DNA from: Aquisphaera giovannonii
Lineage (GTDB): Bacteria > Planctomycetota > Planctomycetia > Isosphaerales > Isosphaeraceae
Length of the DNA stretch: 64,000 nucleotides
NCBI RefSeq assembly: GCF_008087625.1
Contig: NZ_CP042997.1
Span: 3,720,001 to 3,784,000, forward strand
Reading direction: 5' to 3'
Shown here: positions 34,150-40,337 of the stretch, in pieces
How the letters are laid out: the number at the start of each line of letters is the position of its first letter
How positions within the stretch are numbered: position 1 is the stretch's first letter
Notes under the pieces: model-generated
What the model was told of the DNA's origin: nothing
Databases searched by the model: none
Seen by the model: only the letters and a program-made list of their open reading frames with translations
Made by a program: the position numbers and the translations under genes

Positions 34150-35100
34150 ATGCGACTCCTCGACCTCCGCTGCCACTGGGCCCTCCAGTACGCCACCGCG
34201 AGCACCCAGTACGATCCCGAAGCCTATGCGGAGATCCCCGCACGCCTGGGCCGGCTCGACGGCTACCTGACCACCGTCGGCGCCGCGGTCCTGCCGTGCG
34301 GGCGTAAGCGGTCCGACTGGGAGGGTCAGCCCGATCCCTGGCAGGCCCTGCGCGCGATGCTCGCCCGCTACGAGGCCGAGTTCTCCGGCCGGCTCCTGAT
34401 CGGGCCGGAGGACGTCGCCCGCTGGCTCGCCGAGCCCGACGACTTTCTCTGCTGGGGCATGCTCGGGATCGACGACCTGGACGCCCTGATCCGGGACGAA
34501 TCCGACTTGCCCCACCTCAACCCGCTGTTCGACCGCGGAGTCCGCGTCTTCCGGCCCGTCGCCGACGACTGGCCGGGCCCGCTCCGTCGACGATTCCTGC
34601 AGGAGTTGGCAGGGCTCGCGAAGGGGGGCGGGCCGAGGCCGGTCCTCGACCTCGCCGGGATGCGAGCCGAGGCGGCCGCCGAGGCGCTCGCCTGGCTCGA
34701 ATCCGACGCGGCCGCCGGGCGGCTCCTCCTCGTCCATTCGCACGGCGAGCCGTCCTTCGATCTCGGACGCTTCCGCGCGCTGGGCGGCCTGCTCGGCGTG
34801 GGCGTCGGGAAGGCCTTCGCGGCGACGGCCGACGAGCTGGCGGGCCGGATCGAGGCCATCGCCGCCATCCCCTTCCGGGGCCGTCCCGGCTTCGAGGGGC
34901 TCGCGATCGCCACGAACTTCCTCGAGGCCGAGGAGGTCGTCGAGGGCCTCGGGAACGCCGAGCAGGTCCTCGCCTGGCTCGCCGGCCGATTCGGCGGCCG
35001 CGAGGCCGCGATGCTGGCATGGGGGAATGCCGAACCGCTCTTCCGGGAGGCGGCGGGGGCACCGTCCCCCGCGCCGCCTCCAGAAGGGGCCCCCGCCTAG
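34150..35100 (+). CDS. Membrane dipeptidase (M19)-like protein, probably degenerate
   Basis: A 316-aa protein with the barrel-type layout of M19 dipeptidases: LLDLRCHWALQY at the start, LCWGMLGIDDLDAL, LNPLFDRGVRVFRP, VLDLAGM, LLLVHSHGE and a late GFEGLAIATNFLEA. In active M19 enzymes the first block carries a His-x-Asp metal pair, the second a Glu, and a later block a second His. Here the first pair reads R-C-H-W and the Glu is replaced by Asp, so metal ligands look partly lost while VHSH is kept. No signal peptide is visible, so it is probably cytoplasmic. The gap from the preceding gene is 9 bases. The stop codon overlaps that of the nitric oxide reductase gene on the other strand by 3 bases. 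Confidence 0.6.
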   Translation: MRLLDLRCHWALQYATASTQYDPEAYAEIPARLGRLDGYLTTVGAAVLPCGRKRSDWEGQPDPWQALRAMLARYEAEFSGRLLIGPEDVARWLAEPDDFLCWGMLGIDDLDALIRDESDLPHLNPLFDRGVRVFRPVADDWPGPLRRRFLQELAGLAKGGGPRPVLDLAGMRAEAAAEALAWLESDAAAGRLLLVHSHGEPSFDLGRFRALGGLLGVGVGKAFAATADELAGRIEAIAAIPFRGRPGFEGLAIATNFLEAEEVVEGLGNAEQVLAWLAGRFGGREAAMLAWGNAEPLFREAAGAPSPAPPPEGAPA

Positions 35101-37415
35101 CGGGCGGAGGGGGCCGGTTCCGTGGCGTCGAGCCGTCCCTCGGCCGAGAGCGTGGCCACGGCGTCCGGCCCCGACTCCAGCGACCAGCCCGTCTTCAGGC
35201 CGAGGACGAACCAGCCCAGCGCGAACGCCCCGGCGGCGAACAGGGTGTCGCCGAAGACCCGCATCCAGCGCAATCGGTTCATGAGCGGTGTCTGGAGGAA
35301 CTCGGCGGAGCGGGCGTACCAGGTGCCGTGCTCGACGCTCGCCCAGGTCTGGAGAAGGCCCACCGGCAGCAGGCTCATCAGGACCATGAGCGCCAGGCCC
35401 GCGTTGATCGCCCAGAAGGCGAACGCGAGGCTGCCGGTCTTCCAGGCGCGATGGATCGTCAGCCCCTTCAGGCAGAAGAGCATCAGGCCGATGCCGAGCA
35501 TGCCGTACACGCCGAAGAGCGCCGTGTGGCCGTGGACGGGCGTCGTGTTCAGCCCCTGCATGTAGTAGAGCGCGATCGGCGGGTTGATGAAGAACCCGAA
35601 CAGCCCCGCACCGACGAGGTTCCAGAAGGCCACCGCGACGAAGAAGTAGATCGGCCACCTGTAAGCCCGGACCCACGGCCTGGCCCTCGTCAGCGTGAGG
35701 TTCTCATACGCCTCGAAGCCGATGAGGACCAGCGGGACGACCTCCAGGGCGCTGAAGGTCGCGCCCAGCGACGTGACGGCGAGCGGCGTGCCCGTGAAGT
35801 ACAGGTGGTGGAACGTGCCGATGATCCCCCCGGAGAGGAAGATCGTCGTGGAGAAGAGCACCGCCGAGGTCGCCGTCGCCGGCCGCAGCAGCCCCATCCG
35901 GGTGAACAGGAAGGCGATCACGACCGTCGCGAAGACCTCGAAGAAGCCCTCCACCCAGAGGTGGACGACCCACCACCGCCAGTACTCCGCGATCGACAGG
36001 TGCGTGTGCCGGTGCCACATCAGGCCCGGCGTGTAGAAGAGCGGGATCGCCGCCGAGGCCAGGAGGAACAGCGCCAGCAGGTTCCGGTTCGCCGAGTCGA
36101 TGCGAAGCGCCGGCCAGATCGCCCGGGTCATCAGCCCCAGCCAGAGGAACAGGCCGACGGCGAGGAAGAGCTGCCAGAACCGGCCGAGGTCCACGTATTC
36201 ATAGCCCTGGTGGCCGAACCAGAAATTCGCCTCCAGCCCCATCCGCTGGCGGGTCGCCATCCACTGGCCCAACAGGCTGCCGACCACGATGATCAGCAGG
36301 CAGAGGAAGAGGAAGTTCACGCCCAGCCGCTGGAACCTCGGCTCGCGACCCGAGACGGCCGGCGCGATGAACAGGCCGGTGGCCAGCCAGGCCGTCGCGA
36401 TCCAGAAGATGGCGAGCTGCGTGTGCCACGTCCGCGTGACCGAGTAGGGGAGCCACTTCGCCAGCGGGATGCCGTAGAAGCCCGTCCCTTCCACGCCGTA
36501 GTGCGCCGTCAGCACCCCCATGCCGATCTGGGCCAGGATCAGGGCGGTCACCACCCAGAAGTACTTGAGGGTCGCCTGCATCGACGGCGTGGCCCGCAGG
36601 GCCAGCAGCGGGTCGGACGCCGGCAGTGCCGCGTCGTGGTCGGCCTCGTGGCCGTGCTGCGTGGCGAAGTACCAGGCGAGCGCCCCGATGCCCGCGAGCA
36701 GCGCCACGAAGCTGATCACGGACCAGACGATGAGCTGCCCCGAGGGCCGGTTGTCGATCAGCTCCTCCGACGGCCAGTTGTTCGTGTACGAGACCGCCGC
36801 GCCGGGCCGGTCGGTGCCGCAGGCCCAGGCGGCCCACCAGAAGAAGGCCGCGATCTGACGCCGGCGGGCGGGATCCGGGATCGAGTCCGCCGGGATCGCG
36901 TACGCCTCGCGGAGATCGTGGAGACCGGGCTCGGCCCCGAAGAGGGCGTCATAATGCCCCGCGACCGCCTCGATGGCCCGGGCCCGCTCCTCGGAGACCC
37001 GGATCGTGCCCGTCGCCGGGTCGTACGTGTTGGTCCGCATCTCCTTCTTGAGCCGCGCCCTGAGCGCCGCGAGCCGCTCGTCGCCGAGTTCCGCGGGGGC
37101 GGCGTGGTCTTCCTTCCGGGCCCAGCCCTCCAGCAGGAGGGACGCCTCGCGGTGCAGGAAATCCGCGGTCCAGTCCGGCGCGACGTAGGCGCCATGCCCC
37201 CAGACGCTGCCGACCTCCTGCCCGCCGATCGACTGCCAGACGTTCTGCCCGTCGCGGATGTCCGCCGCCGTGAACAGCGTCCGCCCCCCCTCCGTGACGA
37301 CCCTTTCCGGGATCGGCGGGGCCTGCTGATAGAGCTCCTTCCCGTAATATCCGAGCACCGCGAAGGACCCGCCGATCACCAGGATCAACGCGGCCCAGAG
37401 CCGACCATAACGCAT
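35097..37415 (-). CDS. norB: Nitric oxide reductase, quinol-dependent type (qNOR)
   Basis: Membrane enzyme that reduces nitric oxide to nitrous oxide using quinol. The 772-aa single chain has an N-terminal cytochrome-like extracytoplasmic segment (about residues 25-210, with GQEVGSVWGHGAY) fused to a 12-helix heme-copper-type core, which is the qNOR layout rather than the two-subunit cytochrome type. Metal-ligand blocks include WHTQLA, LMWHRHTHL, HLWVEGFFEVFATV, IIGTFHHLYFTGTP and PVHGHTALFG. The start at 37415 is backed by AAGGAGGGG at ideal spacing, whereas the open frame upstream is non-coding. The gene is divergent from an Rrf2 regulator, and its promoter carries an inverted repeat. Confidence 0.95.
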   Translation of the reverse strand: MRYGRLWAALILVIGGSFAVLGYYGKELYQQAPPIPERVVTEGGRTLFTAADIRDGQNVWQSIGGQEVGSVWGHGAYVAPDWTADFLHREASLLLEGWARKEDHAAPAELGDERLAALRARLKKEMRTNTYDPATGTIRVSEERARAIEAVAGHYDALFGAEPGLHDLREAYAIPADSIPDPARRRQIAAFFWWAAWACGTDRPGAAVSYTNNWPSEELIDNRPSGQLIVWSVISFVALLAGIGALAWYFATQHGHEADHDAALPASDPLLALRATPSMQATLKYFWVVTALILAQIGMGVLTAHYGVEGTGFYGIPLAKWLPYSVTRTWHTQLAIFWIATAWLATGLFIAPAVSGREPRFQRLGVNFLFLCLLIIVVGSLLGQWMATRQRMGLEANFWFGHQGYEYVDLGRFWQLFLAVGLFLWLGLMTRAIWPALRIDSANRNLLALFLLASAAIPLFYTPGLMWHRHTHLSIAEYWRWWVVHLWVEGFFEVFATVVIAFLFTRMGLLRPATATSAVLFSTTIFLSGGIIGTFHHLYFTGTPLAVTSLGATFSALEVVPLVLIGFEAYENLTLTRARPWVRAYRWPIYFFVAVAFWNLVGAGLFGFFINPPIALYYMQGLNTTPVHGHTALFGVYGMLGIGLMLFCLKGLTIHRAWKTGSLAFAFWAINAGLALMVLMSLLPVGLLQTWASVEHGTWYARSAEFLQTPLMNRLRWMRVFGDTLFAAGAFALGWFVLGLKTGWSLESGPDAVATLSAEGRLDATEPAPSAR

Positions 37416-37504
37416 CGTTTCCCCTCCTTGCGCGCACCCTGTCCGGGGCCCGCCCTCGGGTTTTTCTCGTGGATTCCGCTGGCTTTTTCCGCCTCGCGCC
37501 GACC

Positions 37505-37533
37505 ATAATAGATGTTCTGGATCTTGATGTCCA
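37505..37533 (-). promoter_or_regulatory. Predicted norB promoter
   Basis: On the minus strand TGGACA (37533-37528) and TATTAT (37510-37505) are 17 bases apart, the ideal spacing. The implied transcription start is about 83 bases ahead of the norB start codon. The inverted repeat 37515-37536 covers the -35 box and spacer. Confidence 0.65.
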
Positions 37534-37536
37534 GAA
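37515..37536. promoter_or_regulatory. Inverted-repeat operator, likely Rrf2 binding site
   Basis: TTCTGGA (37515-37521) and TCCAGAA (37530-37536) are perfect 7-base complementary arms with an 8-base centre. The site lies in the 141-base divergent region, over the norB promoter and 21 bases before the regulator start. This fits auto-repression and repression of norB by the adjacent regulator. Binding itself is inferred. Confidence 0.7.
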
Positions 37537-37556
37537 TGTAACTCCGAGGTATCCGT

Positions 37557-38036
37557 ATGATTTCCCAGACCGCCGAATACGCCCTCCGGGCCGTCGTCCT
37601 GCTGGGGAACAGCGCGGGCGAGCCGCTGACGACGCAGCAGATCGCCCGGGCGTCGAGGGTGCCGGGCGGCTATCTGTCGAAGGTGCTCCAGTCCCTGGGC
37701 CGCGCCGGCCTGGTCGAGGCCCGGCGGGGCCTGCACGGGGGCTACGTGCTCACGAAGGGGCTCGACGAGCTCAGCGTGTATGACGTGGTCAACTCGGTGG
37801 ACCCGCTCCAGCGGATCCACCGCTGCCCGCTCCGGCTCGCGTCCCACGCGGGGAAGTTGTGCCCGCTGCATCAACGGCTGGACGACGCCGTGGCGATGCT
37901 CGAGGAGTACTTCAAGCAGACGACGATCGGCTCCCTGCTGAAGCACGCGTCCCCCGACTCGCCTCCGCCGCTCTGCGAGGTCGCCACGCTCGTCGGCGAG
38001 ATGGCCCCCGCCGGGCCGGCCCCGTCCGGGCATTGA
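37557..38036 (+). CDS. Rrf2 family transcriptional regulator, likely nitric-oxide responsive
   Basis: DNA-binding regulator of 159 aa. The winged helix spans about residues 1-80 with the Rrf2 start MISQTAEYALRAVVLL, recognition helix RASRVPGGYLSKVLQSL, and wing RRGLHGGYVL. Rrf2 proteins of the NsrR type hold an Fe-S cluster; here Cys90 and Cys102 lie in the expected segment (HRCPLRLASHAGKLCPLH) and Cys140 lies later, with no third Cys between 90 and 102. The cluster ligation is thus not the classic NsrR three-Cys set. The gene is divergent from norB, and a palindrome sits between them. I do not use the name nsrR because the sensor set differs. Confidence 0.85.
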   Translation: MISQTAEYALRAVVLLGNSAGEPLTTQQIARASRVPGGYLSKVLQSLGRAGLVEARRGLHGGYVLTKGLDELSVYDVVNSVDPLQRIHRCPLRLASHAGKLCPLHQRLDDAVAMLEEYFKQTTIGSLLKHASPDSPPPLCEVATLVGEMAPAGPAPSGH

Positions 38037-38286: not shown

Positions 38287-38577
38287 ATGAATCTCAAGCC
38301 ACTCGGCGATCGCGTCGTGGTCGAGCGTGAAGAGGCCAAGGAGACGACCGCCGGCGGGATCGTGCTGCCCGATACCGCGAAGGACAAGCCCCAGAAGGGG
38401 AAGGTCGTGGCGGTGGGCGACGGCCGGGTCACCAAGGACGGCAAGCGCCGCGAGCTCCAGGTGAAGGTGGGCGACACGGTGCTGTTCACCTCCTACGCCG
38501 GCGAGGAGTTCAAGCTGGGCGGCGAGAAGAAGGTCCTCCTGATGCGTGAGGAAGACATCCTCGCGGTCGTCGGCTGA
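38287..38577 (+). CDS. groES: Co-chaperonin GroES
   Basis: 10-kDa lid of the GroEL folding chamber, 96 aa. The start [14 protein letters not shown] and the mobile loop [15 protein letters not shown] are characteristic, and [24 protein letters not shown] is the usual end. AGGAG lies about 9 bases before the ATG. An upstream in-frame start is not needed. It is 131 bases ahead of groEL. No CIRCE element (HrcA site) is visible upstream. Confidence 0.97.
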
Positions 38578-38708
38578 GCGGGCCACGCTCGGCCTCGGCC
38601 CGCACGGGCGGCGGCCGGGAAGCGATTCGAAATCGAATTCGATCGACGTTCCAGAAGACACCAGACGAGACCACACGAGAACCGGACCGGTTCGGGAGAG
38701 CATCGAAG

Positions 38709-40337
<1,629 letters not shown>

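Follow-up and report, generated by a model that had tools for sequence, protein, structure and literature searches.

Among the closest described relatives of the regulator considered here, IscR acts on genes for iron–sulphur assembly, and RsrR from Streptomyces venezuelae holds its cluster through E8, H12, C90, and C110, i.e., with two cysteine ligands. In NsrR, the ligands are Cys93, Cys99, and Cys105 (S. coelicolor) together with Asp8 of the partner subunit, which is bridged to Arg12, and the corresponding set in IscR consists of Cys92, Cys98, Cys104, and His107 (PMC5411485). The NsrR operator follows the motif gATGyAT-N5-ATrCATc, norB, hmp, and hcp belong to NsrR regulons described in the literature, and motifs for HcpR and DNR are given in the same source (PMC1274295). 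RsrR, first taken for an NsrR homologue, is a redox-responsive [2Fe-2S] protein with full sites built as 11-3-11 repeats and targets in redox and nitrogen metabolism (PMC5015018). The Rrf2 wing carries the motif Lx3Gx6Gx2GGx2L, and in the NsrR–DNA complex the recognition helix and wing contact bases about 4–6 and 9–11 positions from the operator centre (PMC9338935). As for planctomycetes, NsrR homologues have been listed by BLAST in magnetotactic Planctomycetota, in sections that give no operator (PMC11014258), and the relevant sections on Planctomycetes MAGs of one mat report no nsrR (PMC10866078). Rrf2 genes have been noted near nosZ (PMC6264515). We found no planctomycete nitric oxide (NO) regulon or operator of the kind presented below in the open-licence PMC literature, and nothing on a two-cysteine Rieske-like type in the literature searched.

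The window (the whole 64,000-base stretch analysed, C1:3720001–3784000 of the 10.5-Mb Aquisphaera giovannonii genome) contains a norB gene (35097–37415, minus strand, 772 aa) divergent from a gene for an Rrf2-family regulator (37557–38036, plus strand, 159 aa). The starts, at 37415 and 37557, are separated by a gap of 141 bases, in which the norB ribosome-binding site AAGGAGG is found at 37423–37429 on the minus strand. NorB matches PF22085 (3.6e-71) and PF00115 (1.9e-60), and is the single PF22085 match in its own genome. It has an N-terminal cytochrome c-like domain fused to a haem-copper domain, and from this fusion the enzyme is presumably of the quinol type. The regulator (PF02082, 1.1e-26) scores above both Rrf2 cut-offs, with 93.9 bits against 30 for PF02082 and 104.6 against 73.3 for TIGR00738. 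Downstream of it, on the same strand, groES-like and groEL-like genes were recognized by eye (38287–40337).

For comparison, 116 loci were gathered: 45 genomes from the bacterial family gave 36 strong matches, and named genomes gave the other 80, the best of 545. Removal of six duplicate rows, and then of L020, which is the same locus as L086, left 109 distinct loci; counts over these cover close relatives of the regulator. Among the best 80 of 545, the lineage is found mainly in Planctomycetota and, by record titles, in MAGs labelled Melainabacteria, Obscuribacterales, Nitrospinaceae, Nitrospirae, and further groups. E7, R11, and H105 are invariant in 109/109 aligned regulators, C90, H97, and C102 are each present in 108 (the exception being L041), and C140 in 101. 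The wing motif is present in the window protein as L47-G51-G58-G61-G62-L65, with G58, G61, G62, and L65 invariant in an alignment of 77 sequences. This alignment combines the window with 70 named-genome loci (of 80) and six family loci, some cut back C-terminally; ten loci are left out, L132 because of a stop in the range and the others by choice. An AlphaFold model of the regulator (pLDDT 86.5) has a full Rrf2 fold, for which the structural matches to IscR (4hf0; Z 14.8, rmsd 2.4, 118 residues aligned), RsrR (Z 14.7, rmsd 3.4, 143 aligned), and CymR (Z 14.4, rmsd 2.5, 124 aligned) are tied; DNA-bound NsrR gives Z 13.4 (rmsd 2.7, 138 aligned). Searched by sequence, the PDB gives RsrR as the nearest relative (6y45/6hsd, E 6e-13).

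C90 and C102 with H97 and/or H105, perhaps together with E7, would bind an iron–sulphur cluster, and comparison with the three described proteins shows which parts of their ligand sets recur. The RsrR set is not matched, since the position of H12 is occupied by R11 in 109/109 regulators. In a sequence reading, E7 and R11 stand at the positions of NsrR D8 and R12 (PMC5411485). Unlike NsrR, the regulator lacks the middle cysteine and has the conserved H97 between C90 and C102. In analogy to IscR, where His107 follows Cys104, H105 is placed three residues after C102; equivalents of IscR Cys92, Cys104, and His107 are thus present, but not of Cys98 (PMC5411485). Taken together, the predicted set looks like that of IscR with the middle cysteine changed to histidine, plus an NsrR-like acid and arginine. 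Against NCBIfam NF008240 (cut-off 182 bits) the window protein scores 48.3 bits, and L057, a three-cysteine NsrR-like protein from the same bacterial family used as a control, scores 120.8, also below the cut-off. The likeness to NsrR comprises the fold, an operator palindrome that overlaps the promoter, autoregulation as a probable feature, and targets of norB/hmp/hcp type. Because the three-cysteine and operator features of NsrR are not found, the regulator, although it would act in the manner of NsrR, is placed within Rrf2 and not as NsrR. The L057 gene adjoins norB in genome G031, which also has a regulator of the Cys-His type beside flavohaemoglobin (L052), so that this genome has two Rrf2 regulators with a link to NO.

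The original prediction placed a perfect 7-base inverted repeat with an 8-base centre over the norB promoter and close to the regulator start. Such a repeat, TTCTGGA-N8-TCCAGAA, is present at 37515–37536 (TTCTGGATCTTGATGTCCAGAA, no strand assigned; core GGATCTTGATGTCC at 37519–37532), with arms at 37515–37521 and 37530–37536 that are complementary in 7/7 positions. It is the sole inverted repeat with arms of at least 7 bases in 37410–37560, and ends 20 bp from the Rrf2 start codon. The −35 hexamer of norB, TGGACA (37528–37533, minus strand), is inside the box and separated by a 17-bp spacer from the −10 hexamer TATTAT (37505–37510, minus strand). The predicted overlap and spacing are thereby confirmed, with 10/12 promoter matches, and no other promoter-like site occurs in 37416–37556, where shuffling gave a mean of 0.0 (n = 50). 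A possible −10 of the regulator, CATAAT (37504–37509, plus strand), overlaps that of norB; its −35 is weak, with 7/12 matches in all. CATAAT is similarly placed in Aquisphaera insulae (L018).

By itself, the repeat is weak evidence, because dinucleotide shuffling of the region yields perfect 7-bp repeats separated by 3–20 bases in 159/2000 cases (by exactly 8 in 14/2000). The 22-base pattern has one exact match in the 10.5-Mb genome; allowing up to two mismatches, it is no commoner (38 sites) than its reversed control (35 sites). A scan of the same genome for TGGAYNTNNANRTCCA with one mismatch was noisy, giving 153 sites against 91 for the reversed control, and a box model with A/T-rich flanks is more selective there than such exact-pattern scans. 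It is the cross-species comparison, rather than the palindrome, that makes the putative operator convincing.

A motif fitted starting from the window site, AAAAACTGGATGTCAAGGTCCAATTTTC, describes a 28-bp box in which the conserved element is GGAY-N6-RTCC with A/T-rich flanks. Conservation in relatives, which the original prediction proposed as a check, thus holds for the box but not for the exact 22-base form. With leave-one-out scoring, 64 of the 109 distinct loci have a box of at least 18 bits no more than 200 bp ahead of the regulator gene (70 at a threshold of 14 bits), and 60 do when all regulators more than 60% identical are left out. The background elsewhere in the same DNA is 17 positions of at least 18 bits in 814,357 bp, or 0.0042 per 200 bp, and 14 of the 17 are in loci that also hold a query-set gene; leaving out the more than 60% identical regulators gives 15 positions at 18 bits. 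The window site scores 24.5 bits leave-one-out and 24.4 bits by the stricter procedure. The exact core GGAYNTNNANRTCC occurs upstream of 35/109 regulators, and its reversed control upstream of 2/109. Below 18 bits are 45 of the 109 loci, and 29 are below 10 bits. In the window's own genome, four further genes are clearly of the Rrf2 family; their loci have no box of at least 6 bits, and their proteins, by eye, lack the C-H-C-H pattern. All 11 loci where norB is divergent (less than 300 bp) keep a box of at least 18 bits, also when the more than 60% identical regulators are left out; the refuting condition set by the original prediction, loss of the repeat where relatives retain the gene pair, is thus not observed. 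In Aquisphaera insulae, an 18.0-bit box is kept before the regulator and no PF22085 match was found, which fits autoregulation. The GGA/TCC arms and A/T-rich flanks fall about 4–6 and 9–11 positions from the centre, as noted above for the NsrR contacts. Conservation together with the regulator supports the predicted placement of an Rrf2 operator over the norB promoter, and the box is very probably the operator of this Rrf2 lineage. The L041 regulator (G019) has no cysteine and no H97, yet a 24.6-bit box stands upstream of its gene, and this locus offers a naturally occurring case in which to ask if binding requires the metal site.

Genes near the regulator were identified by tblastn with 14 query proteins, the majority identified through Pfam or NCBIfam. 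Among the 109 distinct loci, and no more than 300 bp from the regulator, the divergent gene is norB in 11, protoglobin in 12, flavohaemoglobin (Hmp) in six, Hcp in three, a Tll0287-like gene in four, a CXXCH protein in two, a radical SAM protein in one, a cytochrome c ahead of narG in three, and a cupin in three. Boxes of at least 18 bits accompany every norB, protoglobin, Hcp, Tll0287-like, radical SAM, and cytochrome c case, two of the cupins, and neither of the CXXCH proteins, one of which has a box of 16.8 bits. In the flavohaemoglobin group, where three loci reach 18 bits (two with relatives left out), the box is related but altered. Altogether, 45 of the 109 loci have a query gene at this distance, 41 of them with a box at 14 bits, and 29 of the other 64 have one. 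Read from their sequences, the targets norB, flavohaemoglobin, protoglobin, Hcp, and NnrS-like proteins point to nitric oxide.

The CXXCH protein (L048, 3113–4465; C1:7577612 onward in the window's own genome) has about 450 residues and one CXXCH site, with no Pfam match at E ≤ 1 and no NCBIfam match at 0.001. It is strongly conserved among 14 aligned copies. A model (pLDDT 68.5) had no counterpart in the PDB at E ≤ 0.001, a result of little weight given the low-confidence middle part of the model. Relatives (L199, L200, L206, L196, L133, and others) repeatedly adjoin the regulator or follow a box, and the protein may be a haem protein linked to NO.

The centre of the box is TTGACA when read on the same strand as the divergent gene. 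The register was counted over 84 distinct loci with a site above 8 bits, taking query genes divergent within 900 bp: the box centre agrees with a −35 in at least 5/6 positions in 43/48 loci with a divergent query gene versus 12/36 without. This difference favours reading the asymmetric centre as the −35 of the target, held between symmetric arms. The window is off this family register, since its centre hexamer TCAAGA has no −10 and the promoter hexamer TGGACA is displaced by six bases. Among the protoglobin-divergent loci, 11/12 have a further match that resembles the box but varies in its centre; as a rule, it closely follows a −35/−10 pair reading toward the regulator. This pattern is loose, and some of the matches listed are probably due to chance.

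Sites away from the regulator were sought with R1, a sequence-only box model of 55 sites with the window site in its training set. In the window's own genome, where 150 of 2110 first-look candidates were scored, five distinct R1 sites reach E ≤ 10, the best being the window site itself. Four of the five precede genes of recognizable families: norB and the regulator, the CXXCH protein (C1:7577450), a radical-SAM protein (C1:2498387) above the TIGR04053 cut-off and 54% identical to the regulator-divergent one in L149, and a Tll0287-like protein (C1:4292972). The fifth (L184) is within a long open frame and has no match with the query set. Taken one at a time, the E-values of 0.088 to 1.92 are weak, and the argument for sites in trans in this genome is carried by the gene identities, not by the E-values. 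The families concerned also adjoin the regulator in other loci. The query set was fixed before the R1 scan; the CXXCH gene was included because its site had already been seen in the exact-pattern scan, and the family also emerged independently from clustering ORFs near other regulators.

In the 45 genomes, scanned at E ≤ 0.1 with stricter filters, R1 finds 23 distinct sites in 16 genomes, of which 13 are beside the regulator or a remnant of it and ten elsewhere. Seven of these ten precede CXXCH, Tll0287-like, or norB genes by tblastn, and an eighth (L203) is assigned by position only, to the same norB–CXXCH region of G040; for the other two (L202, G024:C564, and L204, G023:C3), the neighbouring DNA had no match among the 14 queries. 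In G040, norB is unlinked to the regulator and has two boxes, and a box stands between norB and the CXXCH gene. In G039, a box is found at norB beside a broken regulator remnant (L062, G039:C35); the box is intact, and a second regulator copy is located elsewhere in the genome (L034). Among the norB genes of the first type, G032 has a box of just 16.5 bits, and G038, G031, G027, G029, G030, G018 (L064), G017 (L065), G008, G042, and G021 have none of at least 10 bits. At the box-free norB of L057, L061, L063, L065, and L066, the upstream ORF is truncated-globin-like by eye. A second type of norB (about 170 bits; ten rows, L070–L079, with two loci shorter than the rest) is mostly without a box, the exceptions being a strong one in G002 (31.8 bits) and weak ones in G015 (17.4 bits) and G009 (11.5 bits). 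The strong one stands upstream of this more distant norB type in a congeneric genome (L071/L205, G002:C413).

Based on the position of the box and the residues of the regulator, a mechanism can be proposed. An Rrf2 dimer on the palindrome would cover the norB −35, much of the spacer, and the presumed start of the regulator transcript, and would thus shut off both norB and the regulator by steric repression and autoregulation. A cluster bound by C90, C102, and H97 and/or H105, to which the partner subunit might contribute E7, would keep the protein in its DNA-binding form; nitric oxide would attack this cluster, the dimer would let go, and norB would be expressed until the NO is removed. The same protein would control further sites in trans. 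We infer binding, cluster, NO signal, and repression, and consider it likely that the Rrf2 protein is a repressor of norB and of itself that is relieved by NO.

Among other readings, the best survivor keeps the operator and the repressor and replaces the signal by the redox state of the cluster or by oxygen or iron supply, with the NO-related genes serving downstream needs. The nearest solved relative, RsrR, is indeed a redox-responsive [2Fe-2S] protein (PMC5015018), two cysteines and two histidines would suit a cluster of this type, and some partners, i.e., nitrate reductase, the TIGR04053 radical-SAM protein, and the CXXCH protein, are not NO enzymes. However, the commonest divergent partners consume NO or are linked to it (norB 11, protoglobin 12, Hmp 6, and Hcp 3 of 109), and R11 stands in all 109 regulators where RsrR has the ligand H12, which makes another signal unlikely. 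Far less probable is that the palindrome belongs to another regulator, either a classical NsrR or an activator of FNR/DNR/HcpR type reading TTGAT or TTGAC. The centre, TTGAT in the window and TTGAC on the divergent strand in the family, resembles half an FNR-type site, but TTGAC is explained as the embedded −35, and the box travels with this Rrf2 regulator. The NsrR, FNR, and DNR motifs were rejected as the identity of the box, since few regulator upstream regions match them (NsrR with up to three mismatches 1/109, FNR-like with up to one 4/109, DNR with up to two 2/109), and the window is not among them; the exact core, by comparison, has the 35/109 against 2/109 given above. It is hardly credible that the repeat arose by chance, or forms an RNA hairpin in the regulator leader, with no operator role, since despite the frequency of such repeats in shuffles (159/2000) and its listing as terminator-like on the minus strand, the sequence is conserved upstream of 64/109 regulators and ahead of unlinked genes.

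With the NO-relieved repressor as the preferred reading, these regulators may constitute a separate and widespread lineage of Rrf2 NO sensors, with a cluster on Cys-His-Cys-His and a partner Glu, the operator GGAY-N6-RTCC, the −35 of the target often in the operator, and control of NO-related genes including that of the unannotated CXXCH protein; this broader proposal is tentative, and falls somewhat short of probable. The regulator family offers putative cluster ligands that are directly comparable with those of NsrR and IscR. If true, the reading would provide a concrete NO-response regulon for planctomycetes, and connect haem-type proteins whose function is poorly known with nitric oxide.
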